DNA of 64,000 nucleotides from Arion vulgaris (taxonomy: Eukaryota > Mollusca > Gastropoda > Stylommatophora > Arionidae): contig CM036775.1 of the NCBI GenBank assembly GCA_020796225.1, forward strand, positions 15,390,875 to 15,454,874. The letters run 5' to 3'. Shown here piece by piece: positions 3,089 to 36,300 of the stretch; the stretch's first letter is position 1, and every line of letters begins with the position of its first letter. Both the position numbers and the translations under genes were made by a program. Below the pieces are notes generated by a model. The model saw only the letters and a program-made list of their open reading frames with translations, was not told where the DNA came from and made no database searches.

Positions 3089-6000
3089 GTAAGTATTCTA
3101 TTCTGTGTTTAAATTCTTGAGACTGCTGGACTCGGCTGGAGCATATGTTTTAAATGTTTACTTTTAACTTTAAGTTTATTGTCACTTTGCGAAAGTTTGT
3201 GGCTTCTCGTTTCCCCAGGTCATATGTGTTCCTGTTAATATCGTTTCTGTTTCTTAATAGACGTATCGTTGCTGCCACTCTTTATGTGGGAAGTATTTTC
3301 ACAGAAGATTGTAAAATGGACCAAGAAATCTAGATTTAAGATTATGATTATCACTAGACACAATTATATATGTTATAAAAATATAGAGGCTAAGAGTAAC
3401 TTCAGTAAGAGTGCGTTTACAAGTCAAATATTTGCCCCGTTAAAAATCACGCTGCAACCATGCAATGAACTTAAAATTATGTTTAAGATCATTCATATTT
3501 CAAGTTTATGCAAAATTTCATCACCTTACTCTTGGTTACTAAGATGATGAAATTTTGCATACACTGACAGACTTGAAATATGAATGATCTTCTTACACAC
3601 ACAGTCTGAGTGTAGTAAGTTCAGTAAGTTACACAAATTTTTTGGTTTTTTTACAAGTAACATTCATTGTCAGCTTATGTCCATGTTTGTTTGTATGGGG
3701 TATATAAAAATCGTGTCAGTGTAACAGGACATATTTTTAAAGATTTAAAAGTTAATAAAACGTTTTCACACTGTGTGATCTGTATGTGATCTGAGCCTAA
3801 GAGTGATTGTACATTGTCTATGCCAGTTATGCGCCTACAAGTAGGTCAACACATCTGATTTCTGTGATGCTTTTTATTTACTAATGTAGTTTCCCTAGGC
3901 CCCTACCTTAGTCTCCTGACTCTCCTCTTATGTCTTGTAGGTCGCAGTGTTACTATTCTTTGCTCCCCTTGTCACTTTGGGCTCTGGACACACAGGGGAG
4001 TTCCTTCTAGATAGATCTATTTGTTCTCTTCTTCGGGTCCATGGTATACAGATGATCCTTCTGTAACACTTATATAAAAAAAACCACATTAAATAGGGGT
4101 TCTCAATGGTGAAGTGTTTAAGATGTTTGCCTGTCGTTCTGAAGGTTATGGGTTTGAATCTTGATCGAGTTACATGTGCAATTTTCCCATAATATCCCTA
4201 GGATTGCTACGAGAGTGTGTGCTTTGTGCAACACTCTCGGCAGATGGCGTGCTATCTCTGCCGTGTCAGGATGGGGCCATATGGGAAACCTGGTGTAATG
4301 AAGTCAATCCTTTCCGTTAGACCCTTTAGCACATATGTTTTTTTCCTCTGCCTTGTTAAATGTCCATGTTTCACAACTATACTTTGGCCACTGAGAATGT
4401 GCATGCTCTTAGTATTCAGATCTTTGTTTTATGTCATTTCATAATGTGATAAATTTTATTTATTACAAATGTTATCTGTTACAGGTAATTCTTTGCAAGA
4501 TCGTGGCACTCACAAATCTTCCACAGGATCAGATTCTGGTGAAGATCCAGCTATGCGGGGAAAATTTATGCAGCTTGTGACAAAAGCTCGCCAGTTTACA
4601 GGGGTTTGGGAGACATAGCAAATGCCATCAAGTTGAATGAGGAAGCACTGGCCATTCACTTCAGTGATAAGTTGCAGAGAAGAATTGCAAAGATGAAGGT
4701 AACGGAACAAAAGTTATATTACTTTTCTTTCTTCTTTTGTCCTTCTCTGCTGTTTTGTTACTAAGCGTATCTGGTTTAACTGATGATCGGTTTCCGAGAT
4801 AATGCACTCTGGGTAGCTTGATATGTTGTGGTATTGTGGAGTTTTAAGATGTCTGTAACAGCATCAACCCATCCTTTTCTTGGTTTGCCTCTTCCTCTTG
4901 ATGACTCCATTTTCATGTTGTTTGCTCTTACAACTGGTGTATTCGGGTTCATTCTGACCAAGTGGCCAAACCATTTGAGTCTGTTTTTTCAATGAATCTA
5001 ATAGCAGGTGTTGTTCCGACTGTTCTTCTAATTTTCTCATTTCTTATATGGTCACTTCTTGTTTTATTTACTGCTTTCCTCAAGCATCTCATTTCACAGG
5101 TGGTAATTTTCCTTTCTTATTCTTTTGTCAGTGTCCATGTTTGGCACTGGTAGCACATTACTTTTAACACAACCAAATTATTCTCCAGTGGAGACCAGCT
5201 CCCTGTGGCATATCAGGAAATGGTACCGTAGGTGAATATGTCAGTAGTACCTATATCAAAATTCCAGATACCGAAACCCTCATAAGAGCAAAGATCCCAA
5301 GCGTCAACACTCCGTCACAGAAGGCCCAAGTGAGATTGAATGGTGAAGTTGCTCAGATGCCTAATAAACGCATCCCAAAACAGTTGATGTATGGCAGCTT
5401 GAGTGGGACAGACGTTCAGCTGGTGGACATAAAGTTTTAAAGACACTCTTAAAGTGTCTCTGAAATGCTTCGATATAGACACCACATGCTGGGAATCCCT
5501 GGCGCAATATCGCCAAACGTGGCGCTGCAACAACACAAGAGGAACTTGCATAGCTGAGAATCATACCATTGAGGCACAAAGAAAACGAGCTGTGCGAAAA
5601 AACAGAACACACAACACCCACATGTCTAACCTTGATCATGTATGCCCCACCTGTGGTAAGGGATTGTGCTCTAGGATTGGACTCTACAGTCACCTCTGCA
5701 CACACCAGAGAGGTGCAGCAGCACACGTCTGAGACTGTTGTCATCATCGCTTCCAAGCCTCCATGTGACAACTAGCAAAATTAGTGGTAGATGAAACAGA
5801 AAATTCTGGACAGCCTAATCGCCTGTGTGCTGCCAGGGCCTACAAGGGAAGCAAAGAATAGTACCACTGCGACCTACAAGGCATGTCATAAGAGGCTACT
5901 GATGTAGGACCTAGGGAAGCTACCCTAGTAAATAAAAAGCATCGCAGAATCGGATGTGCTGGCCTACTTGTAGGTGCATAACTGGCACCAACATATAATT

Positions 6001-9000: not shown

Positions 9001-12000
9001 CCTACTTCAGAGGTAGCCATGAGTCCTAAAAGAGCATTGTTCAACACAATATTTCTCCCAACATTATGCTATCAATGCCAAACCTGACTCTGACATCAAA
9101 CGATAGAATAAAACTAGCCACAACAGAAATGAAGTGTCTACGCAGAATGTTGGGAGTATCAAGAAGAGACTGGTTGAGAAATGAAGACATCAGTACTGAA
9201 CTTCACCAAGAAACAACAAATTAAATGGTTCGACCACATAAGCAGATAACCAACTGACAGTGTACCTCAAAGAGCAATGCTACTCTGATACAGTATATGC
9301 AAAGCAAAAGGCTGTCCACGCAAAAAGTTGACCTGAAATATCTCAGGTGAAAACACTTTTATGTAGCACTCATAAAAGCCTGTTCTTGAAATCTCTTCTT
9401 ATCCTGACGCTGTGATGCAAAACAGGATTAGATGAAAGAAAGAAGACAATTGCAAAACTAATATTAATGTTAGTGATAAGTTGCTGCCATATGTCACATT
9501 GAAATCTGAAAGAATTAAGAGAGGGAAGAGAAACATTTATTTATGCATATCTCTCTCTTGCGATCACCGCCCAGACAGATGTACCAGATCTCCCCATAAA
9601 TTCTATTCATGTAGAAATCTGATTCATGCAGCCTTAGCATTGGTGTGTTTTACGTCACATCTTCAGCACCATTTGGAGCTCTGGTGCTTATCCTTGGTGA
9701 TGTGTCCGGTTTCAGCCAGCTTTTACTCGCTTCGCTATCCGTTTTGTGGCCATCTAGTGTTTTTTACGGTGTGGGGTAGCTAGCCCCACGACCAACCTCC
9801 TTAGTCGCTCTACAACATGCGTGGCAGGTAACAGTGTTCTATTCTTTTCACCCCAATTTGGGCCCCGTAACCGCAGGCAATTTATGCATATGTTTGTCTT
9901 CATGCAGGACTCCAGGAATAAATGTAATGCAGTTCCATGGAAGCTCAAAGAAGGATAAAGAGAGAGCTTTGGCTAAAGTAAGAACCAAGGGTGGAGTATT
10001 GATGACAACATACGGCCTGGTCGTGACTACCAAGGAGACTTTTGCAGAGAGACACGGGCAGGAGTTTTTATGGGTAATTTTGTATGAATGGATCAGCAAG
10101 TGGCATTTCTATCAATATGTATAATTTATATCCTCTTCGAATTGCAGAGCCCTCTTTAAACATATGACCACTCCAAATCCCTAAGATGCCATAAATTACC
10201 TCACACGACAAGAAGTCATTATTTTCCGCCTTAGGACACAACATGTGCCCCTGAATTCTCACCTACATCGAATCCATCCAAAGATTGCCCCTCAATGTCA
10301 ACTGTGTGACTATTCAGAAGAAACTGTCACACACCATCTTCCAGTGTCCTGCACTCAGTGACCTACGCCACAAGTACCTACCTCCATACCCAGATGTTGA
10401 AAACACTCTATGCTAACACACCACAACTCAGACAAACCTGTAAATTCACTACCATGGCCTCAAGTCGAAGGGCAAATGCTCAGATGATTGCTGGATCGGT
10501 AAAGTAAAGTAAAAGTAAAGTATATCCTCTTGTGTCTCGTTTGACACACAAGGGGTCTTAATGGTGAAGTAGTTAAGTTGTTTGCCTTTCTGACTGAAGG
10601 TTCTGGATTTGAATCTGGGCCGAGACATATGTGCACTTAGCGTGGCGTTTGGGTTTCTAGGAGTTAATTTATTATTGTATTTGGTCAGAAAATGGGCAGG
10701 ATTTTTCTTAAACATTTAATTTGGAATGTTTTTGTATATACAGATGGGTCGGTTTAACGTGGTGAGAAGTCCGGCTGGGGTTTCTTGGCTAATGCGCATG
10801 GCAGGGTTGTTGCAGAGCGAAGTGGGGCATACAGGACAACTACTTCTAGTATGAGGATGGAGATTGAGGCCGTTACTGCTGCCCTCCATTGGATCTCTGG
10901 GACTTCATTTACTGGGGCCGTTGTTGTATCTGACTCTCAGTCGATGCTTCACAAGATCCAGAGGGCAGGTTTCGCATAAGTGGATGTCGTCTATAGAAGT
11001 TTCTAACCTCCAGAGGCTTACGTGGATATACTATCCTGGGCATGCGGGTGTTTGCGGTAATGAGAGAGCGGGCAGGTTTGCATCAACAGCATCAATTGTT
11101 GGGGAGTTGAAGATGGATAAGGGGGATATTCTTCGGTCTCTTCGCAACTCTGTTGTATGAGGACACTAAAATCGATGTAGAATCGATCAAGCGATTTAGG
11201 CAGTTTGTAGTTATCCGTGGTACAAGTCAAACTGGATGCCTGTAGAGGCAGAGTGAGAGGTGTGTTTAATCAGCGAGCCACGGGAACCATCAGTATGCAT
11301 ACTCTTCGATATCTGTTGGGGAGACTGAGCACCAATGGGTCTGCCCGGAGTGCAATGACGTCAGTTTACTAACCAATAACCAATTTGAAATGTCTCCCAA
11401 TTTGTGTATGATGTTGATAGTAATTTTTTCTGGGCATACTTCCAGGACTATGTCATCCTAGATGAGGGGCACAAGATTAAGAATCCAACCAAGACCTCCA
11501 AGAGCATTCATCTGGTTCCAGCTAAACACAGACTAATCCTTACGGGTACACCAGTACAGAATAATCTCAAGGTATAAATCTTCTTCTTTGCATTCGTTCT
11601 TTACTACCAATTTTAATCACTCTTTGTGATATGTTTGATCTTTGCCAAGAACGTGTATACATTGCACATTGGTTTGGTGTGCCCCTAAACGCATAGACTT
11701 CTACACGCTTAGGACACATGCATCCGATTTCAGCCAAACCTCCTTAGACGCCTCTTACGACATGCATGGCAGGTAACAGTGGTTCTATTCTTTACACCCC
11801 AAATTTGGGCCCGGTAACCACTCGGCGCAAGGTATAAATGATTCTTACGGTCACATTCTGTTTGTAGTTGCTAATTTAGTTGCCATAGCGCCCGTGTGGT
11901 GCCGGGGCCCGCAAAGAGTAGTACAACTGCAACCTACAATGCATGTCGTAAGAGGTGACTAATGGAGAGCGGATGCTACCTAGTAAATAAAAAGCAGCGC

Positions 12001-12344: not shown

Positions 12345-15300
12345 CACCGCCAGACCGATGTACCAGATCTCCCCATAAATTCTATTTATGTGGAAATCTG
12401 ATTCATGCAGCCTTAACATTGGTGTGTTTTACTAAAACGTCATATCTTCTGCACCATTTGGAGCTCTGGTGTTTATCCTTCGGTGATGTGTTTGGTTTCA
12501 GCCAGCATTTACTCGGTTCGTTCTCCGTTCTGTAGCCATCTAATGTTTTTTACGGTGTGGGATAGCTAGCCCCACACCCAACCTCCTTAGTCGCCTCTTA
12601 CGACATGCGTGGCAGGTAACAGTGGTTCTACTCTTTACACCCCAATTTGGGCCCTGGTAACCACTCGGGCGTTATTGTCTTCTATATGTTCTGTGCCATG
12701 TAAGAAGTGAAGAAATTCATCTCTGTTGTATCCTTTGCTTGATAAAGACCTTTTGATCAAAACGTTGCTGTGTATTGTTTTTGTATTTTGTAAGTGTCAG
12801 TAGCTCAAGCAGTAGTGAGTTCAATCACAAACCCAAGCCTACCTGGTTCAAACCCCACAGTGAGCAAGTTTGGAAGCAAATTCGTTTCTGTGGGATTTTT
12901 ACAGAAGGTAAAAATAGACCTCACCATTCAGAAAGCAATGGCAAACTACTGAACGTATACGTGATGCCTAGAAAATCAACTACTGCTTACTGTGGTTGAT
13001 GGCTACGTCCTGTAAAGGATATGCCAAGATTTTAATTTCATTTTGTAAAACTACAGTGCTTTGTTTTTACGTGTTTCCTAATAACTATGCCTACCAAAGC
13101 TTCTCATAATGATAGATGCACCTTTTGTTCTTGTAACAGAAAATGTGGTCTCTCTTTGACTATGTGCATCAAGGGTTCTCATAATGATAGATGTACTTTT
13201 GTGTCTTGTAACAGGAAATGTGGTCTCTCTTTGACTATGTGCATCAAGGGTTCTCATAATGATAGAAGCACCTTTTGTTCTTGTAACAGGAAATGTGGTC
13301 TCTCTTTGACTATGTGCATCAAGGGTTCTCATAATGATAGATGCACCTTTTGTTCTTGAAACAGGAAATGTGGTCTCTCTTTGACTATGTGCATCAAGGG
13401 TTCTCATAATGATAGATGCACCTTTTGTTCTTGAAACAGGAAATGTGGTCTCTCTTTGACTATGTGCATCAAGGGTTCTCATAATGATAGAAGCACCTTT
13501 CGTTCTTGTAACAGAAAATGTGGTCTCTCTTTGACTATGTCCATCAAGGGTTCTCATAATGATACATGTACCTTTTGTTCTTTTAACAGGAAATGTGGTC
13601 TCTCTTTGACTATGTGCATCAAGGCTCATTGCTTGGTACTGTCAGGACCTTCAAGATGGAATTTGAGACTCCCATCATTCGAGTAAGCATTTGTTTGTGT
13701 GTTACCTTATGTCTGTTATTCTAAAAATAAACTTGCAGGACACAATTCTAGATACCGAAGTCCTCATAAGAGCCAAGATCCCAAGCGCCAACACCTTCTT
13801 GTAGATGGCTTAATTGAGATGGACTGATCACATTGCTCGGATGCCTGATATACACATCCCAAAACAGTTGGTGTAAGGTGAGCTTGAAGGCGACAGATGC
13901 CCGTCTGCCCAGCGTGTTCGTAGCGCGTGGACTACGGGTGACTATCCCTCTGTGTGTGCGGGTTCAATTCCGGGATGGCAGAAAAAGCCACAGATTCCCA
14001 GATTTACGGTGTTTGTGGCACCGAACCGAAGGGTTACGATGTCCATGGCACCGAGCCAAAGAGCTGAAAAGCTTGAGTGCTTCTGGATCGGGGGGAAAAA
14101 AAAAGGCAACAGATGATCAATGGACAGAAAAACGCCTCACAGGCACTGATTAGCTACTGAATTGAAAACAGTTTGTGGCTGAATTAAATTTAGGTCCTAT
14201 TTTTCAGTTGCAGGTTTATGTACAAATTCAGCTGCAGTTCTAATTCTGGCATTAATGTTCTCATCTATAGCTCCTCCCGAATATGAGACACTGAGGCAAA
14301 CTCACTGGCCTAACGAAACAACACTCACAGAAAACTACACAGACCTCTGTGTGAGCTACAAAAGACAGTGAAGTTCATACAAGAGACAACATTGAATATA
14401 TAGACAAATTTCAAGTGAACGAAAGGGAGGATCTATAGCTCCTGATTGGCTGATCTTGATTCCGAAGTAGACAAATTCACCATCATCTTAAATATCCCTT
14501 CCCTCAGTCAATATCGGAGGGGAAACCTGACAGACCTGAAGCTGACTGCTCAATTTGTGGTCCACATTAAATTAAGCGCATGACCAGAGATCGCTGAAGA
14601 AGAAGATTCAATATCGGATCTTGCTGTATGTCGTTGCTTTGCAGTAATTTTGTTATCTCTTGGTTGATTTTAAGATCGACTCGTTGCAACAGGGCATCTA
14701 CTTTTCCTGATGTATTGTAGTCTATGGGAGAGCAAGGCAAAATCATCCACAATGTCCAGGTTTTCTAATTTTGACACAAGTGTCCACTGAATGACTTTCT
14801 TTATAATGATCAAATTTGGACACGCTCATGCCATTCATTTACACACATCTGTGTCATTCTTCATCTATACCTCCACAAGTGAATGTCTGCGCTCATTTAT
14901 GTTATGCGATCAACGTCATGGCACATTGGTCATTCCCATTTGAGCTCTCGTCCGCTCGCATGCATCTTCTCTCTCTACCATAAGACGACATGTCTGGCAT
15001 GTCCAAACTTAATGCCTAATTCTCGAACTTGTTCTGAGACTTGCCCATGTCACATAAATGAGAGCGTACTACATTGATGATATCGGCTCTGTCCATGCTT
15101 CTGCCCGCTTGAGTTGGGGCATTGCTTGCAAGAAAGTCAGCACACTCATTACTCTGAACTCTAGCATGTCCAGGTGTGTACAGCCAAGTCATTTTCTTGA
15201 GATGTGATCTCCGAATGCTGTCCACCCATTCGATGCAAAGACTTCCAGATTCAATCCGTTGATGCATTTATGTAATATGGGCGCGTCTCAGACACTGAAA

Positions 15301-18300
15301 CCTTTCTTTCTTTTCTCCCTCTGACGTGAAAGCCGGCCTTTTGCTTTTGACACTGGAATGAATGCGAGAATTATGAGTTAAGTTTGGACATTCCAGACAC
15401 AGGCATCTTCGTGGTAGAGATAGAAGTTATACTAATCAACTTCTCATGGGTACAGTGAGCAAATGGACTTTGGAATGGCTGCTGCAGCAGAGGACAGAGC
15501 ACACATGGGAATGTCCTGTGACGTCGTTCGCATAACATAACAAGCAATTGTGATGGTTAGCTGAAGATATGTTGATTTCACGTTTATCAAAACTTTGTTA
15601 ATTTCAGGCTCGTGAAAGAGATGCAACTGCAACTGAAAAAAAATTGGGCCAGGAAATGGCGCAAACCCTAAAGACCATTATTCAACCTTATTTCTTGCGA
15701 AGAACCAAAGCAGAAATTTCTGGTGAAAATGTCGATGGGAGAGAAGACTCAAAGGAGCTGAAGTAGGGAAAGAACAGGGCTGTTCTGGTTTATTTTGTTT
15801 CATATTTTTAATTTACCAATGTCCATAAGTATTATTGCTGACTTTGCATAATTGGGAAAGGAGACAAAAGTTTAATTGCTTCTAAACAGAAGCGTCCTTT
15901 GTGTTCTTGTTTGTCGGTAATTTATTTGGGTCATATATTCAGATTTTTAATTTACCACTGTTAGTATATGTACAAAAGTTAAATTGTTTAGGTCATGTGT
16001 GATTCCTGTACTGATCTACGGATGTGAAAGATGGAAATCAACAAACAAAATTGGAAAAAATGTCTCAAAAAATTACTAAAAATAAAATGAAGTGGTTTAG
16101 TTTCGTTTCTAACAACACAGTTAGAGATAGAACACACCAACAACCCGTATCAAATATTATAAGGAAACAAGGTGGAAATATTTAGGTCATGTTCTTAGAT
16201 CAGACGAAAAGAGACTAAATCAACAAGTCCTTATGTGGTCACCAGTTGGGAAAAGAAAACGTGGAAGACCTAAGACCACTCTACGAAGAACAATCCTACA
16301 GGAAAGTAAACTACTGGGATATAAAACCATACAAGATCTCCAACTGCTAGCAACGAACCGCATCACATGGAGATCTAAAACCTCTGCCCTATGTGCCGCC
16401 TTTGGTAGAAAAGAAACAAACTAAGCATCATTGTTGATGCATAATTGGGAAAGAATACAATAGTTTAATTGCTTCTAAACAGAAGCGTCTCTTGTGTTTT
16501 TGCATGTCAGTAATTTATTTGGGTCATACGAAGGGTTCTGAAGATACATCAGCACAAAAATTGATACAAAACTGTAGACTATCTGACATTTTTTCAGATT
16601 TCCCTAGGATTGCTCCTTTATCTATGGAGTTTGCGCTTTGAGCAACTCTGCGCAGATGGTATGCCATTTCTGCCAACAGGTACGGGTTATATGTGGGGAA
16701 ACCCGGTGCAGGGAAGTCAGTCCTTCGCCGTTAGACCATATTAGATTGTATGACATTGGGGTCCAAGGCCCCAAGCACTGCTAGAAGTTTGAAACAGAAG
16801 TTTATTATTCAATTAGAACACATTGTGCCCGAGTGGTTACCGGGGCCCAAATTTGGGGTGTAAAGAATAGAGCCACTGTTACCTGTCATGCATGTCGTAA
16901 GAGGCGACTAAGGAGGTTTGGATGAAATCGGATGCATGTGTCCGCTAGGAATGCTAACCCGAAACAAATGCTTGCAGAAAACGGATGCACTAGGCCGTAA
17001 GGCGCATAACATGGTGCAACGACCCTCACAATGAGGAATGGGATAACGGATTCTACAGTCGCAAATCTGCCTTGGAGATTTAGCCATGCAGTAAGAATGT
17101 CAGACCTACCATCACGAGGGTGGCTAAAATTTACTGCAGGAGGAGGTCAACACAAACGGGGAAACAGAAATCATAGGAATTATATCCTACAGAACTGCCC
17201 CCAGTATGCAGACCTGAGAAGAAAGAGGTGGCCTACTTACACCAGCGTCCAAGACAAACAGTATGGCGTAGCTGATAATCTGAGGCAGACGGCTGCCTTT
17301 ATTAGAGAATCCAAATTCCAATCTAGTGAGAACGCAGAAGAAGAAGAAAAGAACACATTGTAACAACCGGTAAAATCGAGGGGAGATGTGACAGAGGAAG
17401 ACAGAGAGAGAAAATTTTAGACAGCCTGACTTCATGGCATGGAAGAGCGTTCAACACTGAGATAATAGCAAATATAAATCATTGACAAGAGATTTGTGGA
17501 GATCTATGATCACATATGCCAGCAGGCACAGCTCCTGATGGTGATAATTCATTTTACTATCTATCATATATTGGTCTGTTTACATTGGTCTGTTTACTTT
17601 AGAATGCCCACTATGACCCGTAAAATGACCTGGTCATTTGGTTGTATCTAACTGAGACTCAACAACAAATCTACAAGGACTTTGTTAGCCTGGATCAAGT
17701 CAAAGAGGCAAGAATTCTTTGTTTGTCATGAATATTCTTCTTCACCCTTAGTTATGCCACTAGGGAGGTGTAGATCTGCAACCTAGGCCTTCAACGCCTG
17801 CCTATCCAATGCCATATTTTCCAGATCTCTCCACTCCACATTTTTTTGGTATTCTGTTTCCAACTCCAGTTTCCAGGTGTTCTTGTGTCTTCCCTTACGT
17901 CTATTGCCAAAGGGGTTCCATCGGAGATCCCATCTCGCAATGCCGTCAGGTGGTTTCCTCTGTGTGTGGTCTATTCATAGCCACCTTCTACCCCTAATCT
18001 CATGTTTCACCTGCCGTTGTCCCGCTCTGTCTCACAGTTCCTTGTTTGTGGTCCTGTCATAACAATCGCAGATGCAGTATCCTGCACAGGCATCTATTGA
18101 TGAATACCTGAAACTTTGTGGTGTTCCCCTTAGTTGTTCTCCATGTCTCCGCTCCATATAGGACAGCTTTTACATTTGAGTTAAATATCATATTAGTTTT
18201 TCATCCTGAATATGAATTTTTTTTTTTTTTTGGTTGTCAATGGATACCAATGAGAGATTTAGGGAGTTTATAATTACACATTCTAGCCAAATGGATTAGA

Positions 18301-21300: not shown

Positions 21301-24300
21301 TTTGTTGCTGATTGCATTAAAAAAAATATATCATTTTCTTTATTGGTTATATTTTTGTATGAATTTTTTTTTTTTAAATTAATTTTGTATTGATTGAAAT
21401 ATATTGTTAAAGATTGATTTTTAAAAAACATTTGTGTTTTGAATTAAGTTGTTTAGATTGATGAAAAAATGAAGGACTGAGAAGACCATCATGGAAGGAG
21501 GCATACGGGCAAAGAGAAGAAGAGGAAGACCACGGAGAAGATGGATTCAGGATGTAACTGATGGTTTGAACATGACGGCTAAGGAGGCAGGACATCTGGC
21601 CTATGAGAGAGAGAAGTTCCGGAGGACTGTTGGGGTGGCAAAGTTCTGCTCAGGACAAGCTATTTGATGATGATGAGATTGATTCTATTTTTAAAGATTT
21701 GTTGTAATTTTTATAATGATTTAGATATTATCATTTTAATTTACCCCAAACAAAGCTATTTTTAGATATGTTGTAGGAATTCTTAGGTATGTAATTCTCA
21801 TCCTTTAGGACAGTCGATTTTAAGGAGAGGGAAAGTAATTTGTCAAATGTAGGTCAAAAATTATTAGCTGATGGCGGGGAAAGTCTGAAACTGTTTGGCT
21901 AATCCATCAATTGATTACTGACCATTACTGAAGACATAAATCATGAATTTCCTTGAAATGTCAGCATTGACACACGACAAGGAGAGTAGCGTTGCTTGTC
22001 TTTTCAAACTTGTTCTTCTTCGAACGCTCCATATCAACCACTTGTTAAGCACTCTACGTCATTTGTATGTGATCTGAGCCTAAGAGCGAGTGTATGCTGT
22101 GCCAGTTATGCGCCTACAAGTAGGCTAGCACATCCAATTTCTGCGATGCTTTTTATTTACCAGGGTAGCTTCCCTAGATACTACATCAGTCGTCTTTTAC
22201 GACATGCCTTGTAGGCCACAGTGGCACTATTCTTTGCTTCCCTTGCGGGCCCTGGCAACACACAGGTGATCTTTTCAAACAGAAACCCCTAAAAACATTA
22301 ATGGAATAAACCTCATGATGTTTGTAAATCACCGGACAACTCCAGGAACCCCAGTCTCCCTTTGTTTGGGGTGAATTAAAACGACAGTACCATGATCAGA
22401 AAGAACTCAAAATCAAAGAAAACAGGCTGATGCTACAAATAAGAAAGAAAATTGAGATATTTTGGACATATAAAAAGACATGAATGGCTGGAAAAGATCA
22501 TCATGGCAGGAGGCGTACCTGCAAAGAGAAGAAGAGGAAGACCACGAAGAAGATGGATTCAGGATGTAACTGATGGTTTGAACATGATGGCTGTAGAGGC
22601 AGGACATCTGGCCTATGAGAGAGAGAAATTCCAGAGGACTTGGGGTGGCAAAGTTCTGCTCTTGACAAGCTATTTCTCACCGAGTGGTTACAGGGGTCCA
22701 AATTTGGGATTAAAAAAGAATAGAACCACTGTTACCTGCCACGCATGTCGTAAGAGGTGACTAAGGAGGTTAGGCTGAAATCGGATGCATGTGTCCTAAA
22801 CGTGTAGAAGTCTATGCATTTAGGGGCCTACCAAACCAATGTGCAACGTATAACGTTCTTGGCAAAGATCAAACATATCACAAAGAGTGATAAAAATTGG
22901 TCGTAAAGAACGAACGCAAAGAAGAAGAACAAGCTATTTGATGATGATGATGATTATGATTTATAACATAAACATTTCTTTGCACTTGTTTCAGTGTTGA
23001 TAACATATAAACATTTTCTGTCCAGTTTTACTGAAGAAGATCTGGAACAACCTGGGATGTATGAAAGTGCAGTCACAAATATTAAGAAGATTGCAGATGA
23101 TATCCTGATGAACGATTCTGGGAAGATGCAAGTCCTGGTCAACCTGTTGGATAACTTCAAGAGTGAAGGTCATCGCACGCTAGTATTCTCTCAGTCTCGC
23201 AAACTCCTGGATATTATTCAGAAGATTATTACCAACAGGGTAAGGTGTTACTCATCATTATTATCCACTTGTCTTAAAACAGGACTTTATCATTTGAACA
23301 TCACCGTGACCTTGTGTTGCCTTGGCTCTCAAGGGGAGCAAAGAATAGTAACACTGCGACCTACAAGGCATGTCATAAGAGACGACTGAGGTAGGGACCT
23401 AGTGAAGCTACCCAAAAAAGCATAGAAGAAATCAGATGTGGTGGCCTACTTGTAGGCGCATAACTGGCACAGCGTACAGTCGCTCTTAGGCTTGGATCAC
23501 ATACAAATCACAAAGTGTGGTTTAAAAAGGGGTCGATATAAAACATTCGAAGAAGAACATCACCTTCATTTTTTTTCCTGTGCGCACAGGAATAATGAAC
23601 AATCTGATTGATATGATCTGGCATGACTGCGAACATAATATATAGTATCTGTTTGGGGGACTTCCTAGAGTAGTTGATAGTAGCTCGGCCTGCTAGCTGT
23701 GAGACGCCTCATAGCTCGGTTCAAACCTACTGTCCGGCATTTGTTCGAGTCCCTGGTCTTACTCAGGACGATAACGTGAGTACCTCTGAAGTCTGAGAAA
23801 ATCTGCCTGTATGGCGAGGAATACTAATTACGAGTACAATGTGCACGTTGCTGCCATTGTAAGAAATTGGAAAAACGGATTTTCACGCAAAAATCAGTTT
23901 CAGAGATGAAACTTCGTCTGAGTTGAAGCGGACGAAAGAAAAAAAGAATAGTATCTGTTTATACTCCACTCTCACACATAATAGGAGCTGCCAGAAAACT
24001 ACAGACCTTCATAAATGAATGTTTACGTAGAATAGAGGGACTGAGATTGTATGATAAGATTACGACGAGAAACACAGAGAAAGAACTAAACAGATACCAG
24101 TGGAGAAAGAGCTAAGGAAGAGATGCTGGCGATGGATAGAACATACATTGAGAAGACCGACCGGAAGAATTGCAAGACAGGCACTGTTTTGGTACCCACC
24201 GGGAAAGGGGAGATGGGGAAGGCCTAGACAGACCTGGAGAAGAGAGCTGGAAGCTGATATTAAAAGGATAGGTAAAACTTGGAAGGGATGGCAAGAGAGG

Positions 24301-27300
24301 AAGAGCTGTGCTCCGTTGGGAGTTGAAAGGTGAAGAAGAACTGATAACTGATTCAAAAAGTTCTTCTGAATTTCTTTCTCTTAAAGACCAGATGACCTGC
24401 CTCAGTTGCGAAGATCGATACAAGATATGGTAGATGATTTGCACAAATAGCACATCTTCATCCTTCCCCCCTAGGGAGGCATATGTCCACAACCAAGGTT
24501 TGCTAAGCTCTGCTATCCAAGGCCATCTTTTCCATATATCCCCACTCTCTCCCCATTTTCTTGCATTCCAACTCCCATCTCCAGGTGTTCCTGGATCTTC
24601 CCTTACTCCGTTACCTATTTTCCGGGTTGAAAAAAGGCGAGTCGGCAGCCTGATTTCCATTTGGATTTCATCGGGTCGCTTCGTGAGTCCCTCCTTGCTA
24701 GACCTTCTTCCTCTGGTGGTGAGCTATGAATTTCCCTGGTTGTACTTTCCGTAGCTATGTAGTGTTTTTTATGGGGCGAGGTAGCTGCCCACACCCTACC
24801 TCCTTAGCCACCTTTTACGGCATGCGTGGCAGGAAACAGTGGTTCTATTCTTTACACCCCTAATTTGGGCTTTGGTAACCACTCGGACAAGAAGCACAAC
24901 TAACTGGTATGAATCAGAGACATAGAAAACAAGTACCAAAACAGACAGTCGCAGAATAGACTTTGAGGAATTCTCAGAATTCGTTGGGATCAGAGAATAT
25001 CAAATTCTGAGATCACCTGGTGCACAGGCATCAACAATATCAATGAGAAAATAAAAAAAGAGGAGATTGGAGTGGTTGGGACATACATTAAGAATGCAGA
25101 AGACCAGGCACTCACATGTGACTTTGAAGTGGAATCCGTGAGGCAAGAAAGTTAGGGGAAGACCTAGAGAGACATGGAGCAACTGTAGACAAAAAGCCTA
25201 TGTCTACAGTTCTAACAAATCTATGTTTTAAAGTGTTTAGTGCTGTCTTCTTTAGGGACATAAAGTTGTTCGACTCGATGAGACCGTCGCACATGTTGCT
25301 GAGCAATATAAAATTGATGACTTAAAGGATATTGTGCTGTCTTCCTTAGGGACATAAAGTTGTTAGACTTGATGGGACAGTCGCCCATGTTGCTGATCGA
25401 TATAAAATTGATGACTTAAAGGATATTGTGCTGTCTTCCTTAGGGACATAAAGTTGTTCGACTCGATGAGACCGTCGCACATGTTGCTGATCGATATAAA
25501 ATTTATGACTTAAAGGATATTGTGCTGTCTTCCTTAGGGACATAAAGTTGTTAGACTTGATGGGACCGTTTCACATGTTGCTGATCGATATAAAATTGAT
25601 GACTTAAAGGGTATTGTGCTGTCTTCCTTAGGGACATAAAGTTGTTCGACTTGATGGGACCGTCGCCCATGTTGCTGAGCGATATAAAATCTATGACTTA
25701 AAGGATATTGTGCTGTCTTCCTTAGGGACATAAAGTTGTTAGACTTGATGGGACGTTCATGTTGCTGATCGATATAATTGTGACTTGAAGTATTGTGCTG
25801 TCTTCCTTAGGGACATAAAGTTGTTAGACTTGATGGGACCGTCGCCCATGTTGCTGAGCGATATAAAATCTATGACTTAAAGGATATTGTGCTGTCTTCC
25901 TTAGGGACATAAAGTTGTTAGACTTGATGGGACCGTTTCACATGTTGCTGATCGATATAAAATTGATGACTTGAAGGGTATTGTGCTGTCTTCCTTAGGG
26001 ACATAAAGTTGTTCGACTCGATGAGACCGTCGCACATGTTGCTGATCGATATAAAATTGATGACTTAAAGGATATTGTGCTGTCTTCCTTAGGGACATAA
26101 AGTTGTTCGACTTGATGGGACTGTCGCACATGTTGCTGAACGAGATAAAATTGTGAAAGAATTCCAGCGCGATGAGTCTATCTCAGTCTTTCTTTTGACA
26201 GTACAGGTAAGTTTTTTTTAAAAATGTATTTCTCGTAGGGATTGTTTAATGCATTTTGTTTGTATTGTATTGCTGGGTTCCGCAAGCAGAGCAAAGAATA
26301 GTAACACTGCTGGGTCTAGAGAAGCTACCCTGGTAAATAAAAAAGCATTACAGAAATCGGATGGGCTGGCCTACTTGTAGGCGCATAACAGGCACAACAT
26401 ATCACTCTTGGGCTCAGATAACATACAAATCACACAGAGTGGTTTGTCAATATGGAGCGTAAGAAGAAGAAGTTTGTAATGTAATTTGTGACTTTATTGC
26501 AGTGTGCCTGCGGGACCCGTGACGTGCGTGTCATATATTCATGGCACACTATTTTACTCTGCTGGCTTTAACGTTAATTAGACTTCAAGAAAACACTATT
26601 TTTCAGTTATTTTCCTAACACTCCTATCCTTCCGTTCGTTTGAAATATTGTCTATATATTCTCTCTCGCGATCACCGCCCAGATCAATCTACCAGATCTC
26701 CCCATAAATTCTATTCATGTGGAAATCTGATTCATGCAGCCATAGCATTATTGTGTTTTACGTCACATCTTCAGCACCATTTGAAGCTCTGGTGTTTATC
26801 CTTCGGCGATGTGTCTGGTTTCAGTCAGCGTATACTCAGTTTGTTCTCCGTGCTGTAGCCATCTAGTGTTTTTTACGATATGGCGTAAAGCAAGTCCCAT
26901 GCCCAATCTCCTTAGTCGCCTCTTACGACATGCGTGGCAGGTAACAGTGGTTCTATTCTTTACACCCCAATTTGGGCCCGGTAACCACTCGGGCCATCTA
27001 TATATTCAATGCTGTCTCGTGTATAAACTTCACTGTCTTTTGTAGCTCACACAGAGGTCTGTGTAGTTTTGTGTTGTTTCGTTAGGTCAGTGAGTTTGCC
27101 TCAGTATATCATATTCGGGTCAGTCTTGAAGTATGTGCTCTGCAGTCTGATGTGCCTGTACACATGACTGAATTGCCAATTAGCACTTCCATGGAAATGA
27201 TCTCGCTTTTGCAATCTTGTTTTATTTTGTAACCATCCTACTGCTCCACTAATTAACTTTTTTGACTGAAGAAAGAGTCTGCATCTTAACGACAGTAACA

Positions 27301-30300
27301 TTTTTATTCTCTCATCAACGCTTTCAATAGACATCATCAACACTCTCAATAGACATCATCAACACTCTCAGAGAAAACTTTTGACTGGCAAAGTTAAGTT
27401 GTTGCCTTGCATTCTGACGGTCTTGAATGTAAATCTGGGTTGCATTATTTCATTCCACCCGTTTGGCACCTGGACCCACAAGGGAAGCAAATATTAGCAC
27501 CACTGCGACCTACAAGAAAGAGCGCTGATGTAGGACCTAGGAAAGCTACCTTAGTAAATAAAAGCGTTGCAGAAATTGTATGTGCGGGTTTACATGTAGA
27601 CTCATAACTGGCACAACGTACAATAACTTAGGCTCAGATCACATATAAATCACACAGAGTGTTTGAAGAATAAGAAATTTCGTTCCCAAGTCTTTTTTTT
27701 GAAGATCTTTAGAAATGAAATATCTGACAATATTCCTGACAGTTGACCTGCCCTTTCTGTGGAGAGGGGCTGAGGTCATATGTGAAACCTAGTGCAATAA
27801 AGTAAATCCGTCACCTTTAGACTCAAAGTGTTCTGTTGGTCAAAGAAAAAATACTGAACTGACATAATATACCATATGGTATCTTCTTCTCTACGTTCGT
27901 TCTTTACCACAATTTTAATCACTCTTTGTGATATGTTTGATCTTTGCCAAGAACGTGTATACGTTTCACATTGGTTTGGTAGGACACGTGCATCCAATTT
28001 CAGCCAAACTTCGTGTCGCCTCTTACGACATGCGTGATAGGTAACAGTGGTTCTATTCTTTACACCCCAAATTTGGGCCCTGGTTACCGCTCGGGTGTAC
28101 CATATGGTATACAACAGGTTATTGTGTTTTTTTCTATTATAAATGGGTATTCTCAACTGTAGGTCTGACCATAACATACTTTGTGTTACCAGAGCCAAAC
28201 ATGGACAATAAGCAAAGCGCAGTCACAAAAAATAACTACATGAGAAATGCGCTGGCTGCAAAAACGTTACCGACAAGACAAGTCACCAACATCAGCATAA
28301 GAAAGAAAGTTGTACGGAACCTTACTTGGATTACATTGAGAAACAAAGAATGAAGTGGTTTGGTCACTTAATAAGAATGCATCCAAACTCCACAATATAC
28401 AGTCTTCCACAACAGAACATCAGGAAAGAAGGAAAGAGGAAGACCACGGAAAAGATAGTTATATGGCATAGCAGAATCCTATCAAAGAGGAAAAATAACA
28501 ATCACCCAAGCCACCAGAACAGCGCAAGACAAAAAAAACAACACTGGGCAACAATCCGGTAGCAGTGGGACGACAAAAGAAGAAGATTCTCAGCATGTAT
28601 CACCTCCATCTGCTGAAAGAGCATGGTTCTGCTCTCATCAAAACTGATTAACTGCACCAGAGAGAGAAAGAGTTGTGGAGAGACATGATCGCCCACGCCG
28701 GCAGGCATGACACTTGATTGATTGATACATTCTCTTTTCTATTTTTTCAGGTTGGTGGTGTAGGTCTGACCATAACATCTGCTGATCGAGTTATCATCTG
28801 TAAGTACTGATTTTTTTCTCTTTACCAGGAGAGTCAGAAATAGCGCATAAATTGCAAACATTCATCAACTGGTGTCTGCGCAGAATAGAGGGAATAAGAT
28901 GGTATGATAGGGTCACAAATGAGGAACTTATGGAGAGAACAAGACAGATTCCAGTGAACGAACAGGTTAAAAAGACGCTGGCGCTGGATAGGACACACTT
29001 TGCGAAAACCGGAGGGAATATAACAAGAAGGGTCCTTGCCTGGAACCCGCAGGGGCAGCGAAAGAAGGGAAGGCCGAGAAATACATGGAGACGAGATTTG
29101 GAGGCGGAGATCAACAATATAAAGAAGAGCTGGAGGGAGCTGCAGGAGATAGCTAGAGATAGGAAGACTTGGCATGAGTTGGTTGAGGGCCTATGCCCCA
29201 ACCCGGGGTAAAGGCAAAGAGAGAGAGGAGAGTCAGAGTTGCTGTTGTAATTTTTAATAATCTCCCTTAGCAGTTCTCTTTTCACTCTTAGTTGTTGGAG
29301 CACTTGTTTATTAGTTGTCTTCTCTTTCCGTGAGGATGCGGAGGGTGGGATCTCTTGTGTTGTAGAGGTTCGCTGCTCGATTCTCATTCCAAAACTGTTT
29401 GGTTTGCTCCCTCTTGGATTCATCAGGATATTTGTCCAGGGATCCCTGACCTCAGTGTGGGTGAGATCGAGTTCCTAGTCCTATCGGAGACGGACGATAA
29501 AACATGTCTTGTGTTCAAGTTGAGCATGTAAAAGAACCCTTCGCAGTTCAAAAGAGCAGATTGAGAAGCCACTGCCCAGACAAAATTCATTAGAAAGATT
29601 TTTTTAATGTTCCAACAAAATATTTTCACAGTCTTCTAAATAATACCAGGAACCGGCGCTACAGAGTTTGAGCGTTGCCGCTGAGATCTTCCTGTGCAAG
29701 AAAGAGATCAGAGCGCACATGAGCCTAATCCAAGCCTAAGAGCAATTGTAAGTTGTGCCAGTTTTGTGCCTACAAGTAGGCCAGCACATCCGATTAACGC
29801 TTTTTATTTACTAGTGTTGCTTCCCTAGGCCCCTACCTTAGACGCCTCTTACGGCATGCATTGTAGGTCACAGTGTTACTATTCTTTGCTGCCCACTGCA
29901 ACACACAGGTGCTTATTAGCGTTGAATCTGGCAAGTCAAATTGAGCGCCTGGGATGTATCCCTAAGAACCCGTAGACAGCGCTGTTCTAGGCGTTCCACA
30001 ACTGTTCTCTACTTCTTCTTGCGTTCACCCACTAAGAATTTATGCGTAGTCAGGCCGCCTGGTATGGCGCACTGACTGATTTTTTCATGAAGGCCTACTT
30101 ACCTTTTTATCTGTGTCCCTCACTATACAGGCAGGACTTCTCCAACTTCAGCGGTAGTTTGTTCTTTTATTTACCAGAAAATGTTCTCAAGGAGCGTCTA
30201 ATTCTTCCACAGATGACCCAAATTGGAATCCTGCGACTGATGCCCAGGCTGTCGACCGTGCATATCGTATTGGACAGGCCAAGAATGTGGTTGTCTACAG

Positions 30301-33300
30301 GCTGATAACCTGTGGAACTGTTGAGGAGAAGATCTACAGGCGGCAGGTGTTCAAGGACAGCATTACGAGACAGACGACTGGCAGTAACACGAATCCGTAC
30401 AGGTTAGCTTAGCTAGATATTGTTTGGTGAATGTGTGCACGGTGAGAACCAATAGACACGGTGAGGCAGGCATCGAAGAAGAGCAAACATGCATGCGGAC
30501 GATGCACGAGTGAGCCCAACATTGGGGGTTTGATGCGAACCACCCAAATGTGCAGAAAACTGGAAAGCCCAGCAGAGACCTGAATCCAGTGCGTTTCCGC
30601 TCAGAGGGAACAACTTACCTTGTCGCTTGATTGGGGACAATCAAAGACTAGTGGAGTAAACTGTACACAAATCTGGACGGGAGGCAAACCAAGTAGTCCA
30701 AATAAAGACCGGTAACCTGGGTAGATGACGCTAAGCAACCCGAGAGGGTAGGTGGTCTAAGGGTCGCTACCCTAAAAGAAAATAGCAACCTGTTGCCTTG
30801 CAGGTCGGCTGGGGATAGCTAAAGGCTAACGGAGAGCGAACCCAGTAAATGCTGGTTGAAATCAAAATACGTTTCTGAAGGACAAATTCCAAATGGTACT
30901 GAAGATGTGCGTAAAAAGCTGTCTTGACTGAGGTTGTTTATATATCACGATAAGAATTATAAAAATGACAACAAAGAACAAACAAGAGAGAGAGAGATAT
31001 TGTTAACAAAATCCCTAGGGGAGTCTCTCGCGATCCCGGCCTAGACTGATGAACCAACTTTTATCATGAATTTTACCATGTTTTTAAGGGACTCTGTTCC
31101 TCCGTACAGCTTCTCGCGAAGCCCTGTGTTTTTAGACCAGGTTTCTTTTCTTATGCCTGCTGTCAGTTGACAATCTTGCAGAACGTGCTCTCCCGCCATG
31201 TCCGCCTTTTTGCAGGGGCACAGGCTAGTTGTGCCAATTTTAAATTTCATGTCGGAGCTTGGGGGTCTAAGGTTACACACACTTGCCGTGCGCTCCGAAT
31301 GTCATTGGTTAGAATCTGGACTGCGCCATTCTGTTCACAGGTGAATTCTTTCCCAGAGGCCCCTGGGAATTTTGCAGGAGCTATGGAGTTTGTGCTTTGT
31401 ACAATATTCTCGGCCGGTGGCATGCCATGTCTGTGTAGAGGAACCGAGCCATATGGGGTAAAACCTGGTGCAATGAAGTCAATCCTGTGGCTTTAGGTCC
31501 TTTAAACAAAATTCTGTTCATGTTAACTTAGCCAGACTTTGTTAACAAAAACCTCCATCGGACCTCGCCCGTGTACTACAAAAACAGTGAAGTTCATACA
31601 ATAGACAACATTGAATATATAGACAAATTTCAAGCAAGAAGGAAGGAAGAACCTCTTTCAGTTAACTTTGTTAACAAGAATCTCTTTAACAAGAACCTCT
31701 ATCAGTTAACTTTATTAACAAGAACCTCTATCAGTTAACTTTATTAACAAGAACCTCTATCAGTTAACTTTGTTTACAAGAACCTCTATCAGTTAACTTT
31801 TTAACAAAAACTCACCGGTTAACTTTATTAACAAAACCTATCAGTTAACTTTATTAACAAGAACCTCATCAGTTAACTTTGTTTACAAGAACCTCTATCG
31901 TTAACTTTGTTAACAAAAACTTGTATATGTAGGTTTAGAGTTATCTAAGTAATTTTTTTAATTAAAAGTTGAGATTTGAGCTGGTGACGTGGTTGATGTT
32001 TTAAAAAAAAAAAGATGGATTAGAATTAAAATGTGATTTGTGTTAAAATGGTTTGGATTAGAGTTATAGATGTGATATATGTTAAAATATACATGCTATT
32101 TGGCAATAACTACATGTTCCCCATCAGGTATTTTACCAAGATGGATCTGAAGGAGCTGTTCACTCTGGATGATCCAAGATTCTCCAAGACTCAAAGGCAG
32201 CTACAGAACATGCATGGCAACCAAAGAGAGACAGACTCCGGTCTGGATGAACACATTGCTTTCTTGCATACACTTGGTGAGGGTAGTGGAGGCTTAGAAG
32301 AAAAACACAAGAAAAACTTTGTTAAAATTGTTGTATGAACTGGTTAGAAGAACAGTGAAGGAAGGGAAGCTGTTTGAAATCAGTATTTGAACTGGTTAGT
32401 AGGAAGGAAAACTGGTTTGTAAGTGAAGGAAAACTGGTTAGTGTAAGGTGAAGGAAAACTGGTTAGTGATGGAAGGTGTGAAGGAAAACACTGGTTAGTG
32501 TAAGGTGAAGGAAAACTGGTTAGTGTAAGAGGTGAAGGAACACTGGTTAGATGTAAGATGTGGAAGGAAAACTGGTTAGTGTAAGAGTGAAGGAAACTGG
32601 TTAGAATAAGTGTGAAGGAAAACTGGTTAGTGTAAGGTGAAGGAAACTGGTTAGAATAAGTGTGAAGGAAAACTGGTTAGTGTAAGGTGAAGGAAACTGG
32701 TTTGTAAGTGTGAAGGAAAACTGGTTAGTGTAAGAGTGAAGGAACACTGGTTAGAATAAGTGTGAAGGAAAACTGGTTAGTGTAAGGGTGAAGGAAAACT
32801 GGTTAGTGTAAGGGTGAAGGAAAACTGGTTATTGTAAGAGTGAAGGAAAACTGGTTAGTGTAAGAGTGAAGGAACACTGGTTAGAATAAGTGTGAAGGAA
32901 AACTGGTTAGGATGAGTGTGAAGAACAACTGGTTAGAATTAGAGGAAAGGTAAACTGGTTGAAACCAATGTTTTAACTGATTATGATAATATTGGAGAGT
33001 TTGAACTGGAATTAAAGTGAAGGAAAACTGGTTGGAACTGATGGTTGGACTGGTTAGAATAATGTTGAATGTTTGATCTGGTTAGGATACGGGTGAAGTA
33101 CAACTAGTTAGAACTAATGGTTGAATGTAGTGATCTTGTGTGCGTAGAACTTGTAAAACAAATTATTCATACCGGTTTTCTCATTGTTTGAAAGCCATGT
33201 ACTATTTTCAGATATATTTGGCATCAGTGACCATGACCTTATGTTCAAGCAGACATGTGACAGAGACGATGAGGATGATGATGTGGAGTTAATGATCGGG

Positions 33301-36300
33301 AAGAGGAGGGAGAAATGATGCACATTTCATTGATTATCGGGTGAGTATGGATAAAAGCAGCATTTGTTTTCTACACTGTCGCTAGTCACCAAGTTAAATA
33401 CAAACAAGATTCAGACCTTTGTCAACAGATGTCTTTGATGTATTCTCAGACTGAGATTGTATGACAGAGTTGCAAACACAGACTTGTGAATAAGATAAGA
33501 ACAGAACACAAACCCATGATGACCCAGGCTAAGAGAAGAAAATGCTGATGAGTCGGGCATACCCTGCAGAAGACAGTTGAGTCACTAGACAAGCACTTGA
33601 GTGGAACCCGCAAGGAAAAGTGAATGTCCTAAACAGACCTGGAGATGGAGTCTTCTTAAGGAACTGAGTGAAGCTGGACTTGCCTGAGGCCATAAAGAAA
33701 ACAGCCAGAGATCGAGAAAAGTGAAGAACAACTGTTGAGTCCTATGCTTCATGAGGATCGGAGAAGAATTAGTACGTAGTTTCCACGTATGGTGTCTGTG
33801 CAGAATCAAGGGATTGAGATGGTGTGATAGGGTCGCAAATGTGGAACTTATGGAGAGAACAAGACAGGTTTCAGTAAACCAAGATGTTAAAAAAACGCTG
33901 CCGCTGGATAGGACATACTTTGAGAAAATCAGATGGGAATATAACAAGAAGAGTCCTTTCCTGGAACCCATAGGGACAGAGAGGCAGTCCTATAAATACA
34001 TGGAGATGAGATTTGGAGGCAGAGATCAACAATATAAAGAAGAGCAGGAGTGAGCTGCGGGAGATAGCTAGAAATAAGACTTGGCATGAGTTGGTTGAGG
34101 GTCGATGCCCTAATCGGGGTTAAAAAAGCATGAGAGAGATTTTCAACATTTACTTGATACAATGAAATGAGACGACTTCCATGAATTCTTTAACTCTTAG
34201 TAGACCAGGGTAAAAGTCATATTTTTACACGCCATTTATTTTTAGAATAGAAACACCCTTTAGTGTGGTTTCTTGTAAAATGGCGTTCAACCCAAAGCCA
34301 CGTAGTGTGGTGTTTGGTCCACAAGGAGTTAATGCCAGTGTGTTGCCGGGGCTCACAAAGGGAGCAAAGAATAGTAACACTGTGACCTACAAGGCATGCC
34401 GTAAGAGGCGACTGACATAGGGACCTAGGTAAGCTACCCTAGTAAATAAAAAGCATAGGAATCGGATGTGCTGGCCTACTTGTATTCGCATATCTGGCAC
34501 AGTGTACAATCGCTCTTAGGTTCAGATCACATACCTCTTCTTTGAGCGCTCCATATCGACCACTGTGCGATTTGTATGTGGTGTGAGCCTAAGAGCGATT
34601 GTATGTTGTGCCAGTTATGCACCTGCAAGTAGGTCAACACATCCGATTTCTGAAATGCTGTTAATTTACTAGGGTAGTTTCTCTAGGCCCTTCACCAGTT
34701 ACATCTTACGACATGCCTTGTAGGTCACAGTGGTACTATTCTTTGCTTCATTTGCGGGCCCCAGCACCACACGGTCGAGATCACATACAAAGAGTGGTTT
34801 AACAAGTGGTCGATATGGAGCGTTCAAGAAGAATTCTTTAATGTTAATTTTTCTGTTACAGTTTTCATGGTATCTGCTCTGTTCACTTGCAAACTTTTCT
34901 GTTGATGCAAATTCCTGTGCTCATATTGTATATGTTGCTAACATCACAGGTGAAGAAGGCACAGATGCTTATTGCTGAAGAGTCCACTGGTTGTATTCCC
35001 TATGAGCAGAGGAGTAAAGGAGTAAAGAAATATCCCTCAGCAACCACCACCTCCACTGTTCCAGGAGTTCCCAGACAAAACCCATTATTCACTCAAGGTA
35101 AAATTCTTATGTTATGCGATCAATGTCATGGCACATTGGGCATTCCCATGCATGCTCTGTCCTCCGCTGCAGCAGCCATTCTAAAGTCCATTTGCTCACA
35201 GTACCCATGAGAAGTTGTTTACTATATCTTCTCTCTCTACCATGAAGACTACACTGTCTGGCATGTCCACACTTAACGCCTAATTCTCGAACTCGTTCCA
35301 GTGTCTGAGTCGTGCCCATGTCACATAATTGAGAGCGTACATTCTTATATTCGTCAGAGCGGTACATGGGGCCAGAATTAGTGATGTAAAGAATAAAATT
35401 ACTGTTACCTGCCATGTGTGTCGTAAAAGGCGACTAAGGGGATTGGGAGTGTGGGGCTAGCTACCCCATGCTGTAATAAAAAACACTAGATAGCTACAGA
35501 AACCACAACCAAGGAAGAAGAAGGACCCTGCAAGGGGGGAAGACCCGGGAACACCTGGAGACTAGAGTTGGGGATGGAATGTAGGAAAATGAGGAAAGAT
35601 CTGGAAATGATGGTCTTAGGTTGGAAGGCCTAGTTGTACTCTTATGCCGCCCATGTGGTGCCGGGGCCCACAAAGGAAGCTAAGAATAGTACCACTGCGA
35701 CCTACAAGGCATGTAAGGGCTGATGTAGGACCCAGGAAAACTACCCTAGTAAATAAAAAGCATTGCAGAAATTGGATACGCCAGCTTACTTGTAGGCGCA
35801 TAACTGACACAACATACCATCGCTCTTAGGCTCAGATCATATACAAATCACACAGTGGTTAAAGAGTGGTTGATGTGGAGCGTTCAAAGAAGAAGAGGAA
35901 GAAGTGGATCTATACCTCCCGTGGGATGAAGAGAAGAAAAAGAATGAAGATGAAGTGTTGAAATATGCAGATTCTTAGTATGGCCACTCTTATCTTATCT
36001 TAACCACATTTGCAGTGAAGCTTCAGTGGGAGATTTAGTTTTCTATCTTGCGCCAGGTGTGTTGCACTTGACGTTGTCAGTCCATGCTTTCGCAGTGACT
36101 CTGAGATATCTACCTATCGTGTTCTTGGCGTGCCTCATGCTCTGCGCCCTGAATGTCGATTATTGTAGGCACATGATGGTAGTAAATGTGGTTCCATTCT
36201 CATTAGATGGCTGAACCACTTGATTCTTTGCTTCTCGATGTACTGTATGCATGGTATAGTACCAACGATGCTTCTGATATTCTCGTTTCTCACTCTATCT

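Follow-up and report, generated by a model that had tools for sequence, protein, structure and literature searches.

A repeat lying over an intron-exon junction was reported in a 2007 study cited in PMC5941971, where it is indicated to affect alternative splicing. Competition between 3' splice sites is treated in PMC9225289, which credits Reed and Maniatis with experiments in which the upstream 3' site was chosen, with distance held responsible. The paper also describes an overall upstream preference that is only reduced under exon definition, and states that, where the flanking introns exceed 250 nt, sites are recognised across the exon and the pair with the shortest exon between them is favoured. 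PMC2891723 describes how introns are gained through tandem duplications, with splice signals multiplied and duplicates carrying premature stops. NAGNAG tandem acceptors also place acceptors in series before one exon.

The gene described here lies in a 64-kb stretch of gastropod DNA (the window) and shares features with each of these systems. Like the 2007 repeat, its repeats cross an intron-exon junction, but here every unit was verified, base for base, to contain a whole acceptor with the start of its exon, and two arrays occur in one gene. Like the experiments of Reed and Maniatis it involves several competing 3' sites, but these are natural, number seven and ten, and have long flanking introns. 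The upstream site was chosen there, whereas here the last one gives the protein and its use is predicted. The tandem duplications of PMC2891723 created a new intron inside an exon, while here an existing acceptor is multiplied and there is no convincing new donor. In contrast to NAGNAG sites, the acceptors are separated by 75-94 nt, and each has its own tract and probably a branch point as well. No description of arrays in which whole 3' splice sites are repeated together with exon starts was found in the literature searched, in a search that was not exhaustive. The features are as follows, with the acceptor copies that precede the real one called decoys.

4609-4698, + strand: upstream coding stretch of the same gene, 70% identity to the Lymnaea N-terminus
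about 7143-33340, + strand: ERCC6L exons A-N, 14 contiguous exons (tblastn guide, then phase-matched reading)
11446-11571, + strand: exon D, upstream of array 1, ending ..NNLK AAG then gtataa (exon reading)
13101-13550, + strand: array 1 decoy units 1-6, 75 bp each (repeat and unit comparison)
13140, 13215, 13290, 13365, 13440, 13515, + strand: array 1 decoy acceptors, first exon base (unit comparison)
13551-13625, + strand: array 1 unit 7, with the real acceptor at 13590 (unit comparison)
13590-13682, + strand: exon E, 93 nt, phase 0-0, 31 residues, donor CGA then gtaagc (exon reading)
23026-23239, + strand: exon I, upstream of array 2, donor AGG then gtaagg (exon reading)
25240-26153, + strand: array 2, ten units, each repeating the acceptor together with about 60 nt of exon J (TRF, unit comparison)
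25256, 25350, 25444, 25538, 25632, 25726, 25811, 25905, 25999, + strand: array 2 decoy acceptors (unit comparison)
26093-26206, + strand: exon J, 114 nt, phase 0-0, 38 residues, donor CAG then gtaagt (exon reading)
34935-35096, 40889-41089, 41797-42018, 46033-46170, + strand: C-terminal coding stretches of the same ERCC6L gene

The gene is ERCC6L / PICH, an SNF2-type ATPase. Its coding stretches were located by tblastn with a guide protein, and the exons were then read from the sequence. The assignment follows from two domains in the joined exon A-N protein, SNF2-rel_dom (PF00176, 1.5e-67) and Helicase_C (PF00271, 6.1e-27), from its relatives, many of the best 120 of 3140 protein matches being named ERCC-6-like, and from the N- and C-terminal extensions. 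The top identities among these best 120 are to gastropods (Lymnaea 79%, Bulinus 78%, Elysia 76%). In a set of 14 relatives hand-chosen from the 120 listed, with up to two gaps allowed per column, 154 columns are invariant and 153 of them are also kept here. Exon E, called exon 7 in the initial annotation, is the fifth of the 14 contiguous mapped exons, and at least one further coding stretch lies upstream, at 4609. No near-identical, same-species protein derived from a transcript occurs among the matches listed in three protein searches (the best 120 of 3140, 5 of 5 and the best 120 of 153). The proteins of seven chosen relatives have no insertion at exon E, an observation on protein that does not bear on decoys.

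The frame is open and conserved when exon D is joined to 13590 and exon I to 26093, and exons A-N are stop-free apart from breaks in G and N. Twelve of the 13 mapped introns have GT-AG ends and one has GC-AG. The latter follows exon G, which apparently ends in a GC donor (GAG then gcaaga, 17707-17709), the only non-GT donor mapped. Exon G (17603-17707) has a one-base frame break, and further breaks are probable in exon N (33212-33340) and near 41.4 kb; they may be assembly indels or early decay. The four introns flanking exons E and J are 1.9-2.9 kb long. A predicted protein of Elysia marginata lacks exon J: where exon I ends it goes on directly with the beginning of exon K and then ends; the omission may be an annotation fault.

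Array 1 (13101-13625, 525 bases) is a minisatellite of seven head-to-tail 75-bp units at the start of exon E. TRF reports it at 13101-13624 with period 75, 7.0 copies, 95% matches and a score of 948; a repeat search finds the 75 spacing six times, and each of the seven units agrees with the consensus at 70-74 of its 75 bases. These results bear out the initial annotation, which had seen seven 75-bp units each with a pyrimidine tract, a CAG acceptor and an exon start, and its list of acceptor positions from 13140 to 13590 is correct on base-by-base reading of the units. The array edges are sharp, since only 22 of 75 bases upstream and 18 of 75 downstream match the consensus. Each unit contains TTCTCATAATGATAG (ATAC in the last unit), a pyrimidine-rich stretch, an AACAG acceptor and the 35 opening bases of the exon. 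The exon start was said to run to 36 bases; it is indeed shared, but base 36 is C in the real exon E and G in all six decoys. Units 4 and 5 are identical to each other, and there is no other identical pair. Searching the host genome with the array 1 sequence gives at least one match, a lower bound. A reverse-strand ORF of 187 aa crosses array 1, a frame of the kind that a unit length divisible by three keeps open.

The real acceptor of array 1 is the last one, at 13590, because it alone reads into the conserved ERCC6L frame, and the six decoys precede it as had been proposed. Each decoy meets an in-frame stop at codon 15 (6/6). The annotated product, a peptide starting with E and followed by TAA TGA TAG, holds for the early stop, but decoys 1 and 6 read otherwise at the peptide and decoy 6 continues TAA TGA TAC, so the third stop is missing there. 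With a general acceptor matrix the real acceptor scores 10.4 and the decoys 5.3-8.05. A matrix made from 11 other acceptors of the gene also puts the real site first, at 10.15 against 5.5-7.6. Unit 7 is the sole unit with ACATG upstream (the others have AGATG or AGAAG), the only one with T at -7, and alone has no AG in the interval from the likely branch-point region to the tract. The acceptors of array 1 had been called near-identical, which is partly right, but the real site scores highest and sits in the sole unit with no AG in that interval; the description suits array 2 better. The acceptor core of array 1 is no less variable than the rest (7/36 against 4/34 columns, P = 0.52), and its exon part has one synonymous change of two, too few for a coding test. 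Folding of 13060-13720 (z -0.86, with 5 of 20 shuffles at least as good) does not support an RNA structure hiding the array 1 decoys.

Array 2 lies 12.5 kb downstream in the same gene, at the start of exon J, and was absent from the initial annotation. Its ten units are set at eight steps of 94 bp and one of 85. Over positions -20 to +15 units 2-10 show no difference, and the local sequence therefore offers nothing to mark the true acceptor. All nine decoys reach a stop, at codon 21 or 34, and the real copy before exon J is the only one open to the donor. Among the eight decoys compared (unit 6 was excluded for its 9-nt deletion), all eight have TAT for the GAT of the real exon (Y for D), and three have RLDET for RLDGT (E for G). 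The real copy keeps the family residues at both positions. The acceptor core has one variable column of 36 against 13 of 59 in the rest (P = 0.015, with units 1, 6 and 7 excluded and the region picked post hoc), a difference that plain neutral drift does not predict. Of the 13 changes in the exon part, eight are synonymous where 26-30% are expected (P 0.008-0.017). This excess suggests that the units exchanged with the coding unit in the past.

The two arrays together hold 15 decoys, six in array 1 and nine in array 2, and these 15 near-identical false 3' splice sites apparently all have to be skipped for protein to be made. The predicted exon lengths are 93 and 114 nt from the real acceptors, and 168-543 and 208-951 nt by way of decoys. 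By the general matrix the decoys score 5.3-8.4, within the true range of 11 other acceptors of the gene (4.3-12.1). This is weak evidence, since acceptor-like AGs are plentiful in the window, outside the arrays too, where 146 of 4289 AG sites score at least 7 and 84 at least 8, arrays included. A premature stop follows every decoy (15/15), as in a poison exon, but the earlier term "built-in poison sequence" reads too much into this. The chance of a stop in a 25-codon in-frame unit is about 70% (1 - (61/64)^25), and the 94-bp unit shifts the frame with every copy, so stops are almost unavoidable.

Minisatellites are common in this genome. A 200-kb sample, taken as 20 x 10 kb at the 10-Mb point of 20 contigs and thus fixed rather than random, has 88 loci with a period of at least 20, covering 16.8% of the bases, with arrays up to about 2.6 kb. 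The window itself has nine such loci and 5.3% coverage. With 88 loci in 200 kb, captures of an acceptor are expected somewhere in the genome. Two in one gene exceed random placement, with P 0.0017 for five loci over 13 acceptors (post hoc), and P about 0.01 against the genome sample with an assumed 18 acceptors, or 0.004 for units of at least 50 (also post hoc). A perfect 14-bp tandem duplication (ATTGGTCTGTTTAC x2) is found at 17570-17597 in the tract of exon G, ending five bases before the exon, and is the third repeat at an acceptor of this gene.

The favoured reading, to which we give a probability of about 0.6, is that two independent minisatellites each captured a 3' splice site and that the last acceptor is chosen by exon definition. 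It is built on the anatomy, frames, stops and gene conservation, all of them observed. For the duplication history we infer ordinary minisatellites, each started by a tandem duplication that chanced to include a 3' splice site. The stretch first duplicated would have begun about 34-39 bases before the acceptor and ended 35 or about 60 bases inside the exon. This would have happened twice independently within one ERCC6L gene, in a minisatellite-rich gastropod genome, and the occurrence of the same design twice with different units and different exons speaks for it. The pre-mRNA would then have seven and ten acceptors, of which the last of each series alone gives protein. Since the four flanking introns exceed 1.9 kb, splicing at exons E and J should go by exon definition, which would favour the acceptor nearest to the downstream donor, that is, the last copy; in array 1 this is also the strongest by score. 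Tolerance of the arrays by the gene is presumably due to this preference of exon definition for the donor-proximal acceptor. Use of a decoy would lead to a premature stop and presumably to nonsense-mediated decay. Some leakage to decoys is expected from the overall upstream preference described in PMC9225289. Use of the last acceptor is thus a fair prediction rather than a certainty, with stop-bearing products likely to arise to some extent. The eight synonymous changes of 13 in array 2 are above expectation for copies that never coded and count against the favoured reading, as do the low variability of the acceptor core in array 2 and the excess of two captures in one gene over random placement.

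The arrays could instead be tolerated in a relaxed or dying gene, one of two ERCC6L copies left by genome duplication that has recently lost its function. Stylommatophora underwent a genome duplication according to PMC12328838, and the frame break in exon G and the probable ones in exon N and near 41.4 kb fit such a history, but those breaks are equally explicable as assembly indels. The retention of 153 of 154 invariant columns, the stop-free exons outside the G and N breaks, and the 12 GT-AG and one GC-AG introns make it unlikely. Regulated poison acceptors, with decoys used in some cells, nonsense-mediated decay lowering ERCC6L output and array length setting the level, are a somewhat less likely proposition. 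They would account for the stops after 15/15 decoys and for the identical core of array 2 units 2-10, but chance alone predicts stops in such units, exchange between units can also give the invariant core, and the array 1 decoys are weaker than the real site and variable at the acceptor. Ranked behind this, and doubtful, is the idea that the arrays are working ladders, in which distance to the downstream donor decides among up to ten near-identical acceptors, a fixed fraction that takes decoys is destroyed and minisatellite length tunes ERCC6L dosage. If it were true, many other genes in this repeat-rich genome would carry ladders.

An assembly artefact, with a true copy number of one or much smaller and mis-assembled reads, is more doubtful again. 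The source assembly has possible indel errors in coding exons, but the units differ from one another in a fixed order and one array 2 unit has a 9-nt deletion, which would not come from copying one stretch of reads. Similar arrays are also frequent in the 200-kb sample, although that is drawn from the same assembly. Stepwise removal of the decoys by recursive splicing or zero-length exons, raised in the initial annotation, has nothing for it but the repetition itself and is very improbable. None of the 17 acceptors has AG followed by GT, and the best internal GT scores 1.7 in array 1 and 2.7 in array 2, against 3.8-12.6 for true donors (matrix scores of the 13 GT donors among the 14 mapped). 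Recursive splicing and removal of micro-exons were rejected on the low donor scores and the absence of AG then GT.

Array 2 is a natural competing-splice-site experiment, with ten acceptors, nine of them identical in the core, one conserved exon and long introns. If the gene is expressed, RNA reads over array 2 would show directly if position is enough to select a 3' splice site. The locus also shows that minisatellites can straddle exon starts of a conserved gene while the frame stays open through the last copy.

Two further repeats lie in introns of this gene. A 20-bp part of exon K (28759-28778) recurs without change at 28158-28177, some 600 bp upstream in the preceding intron. A minisatellite of about 26-bp units, many of which have GTGTAAG-like motifs, at 32390-33081, fills most of the M-N intron.
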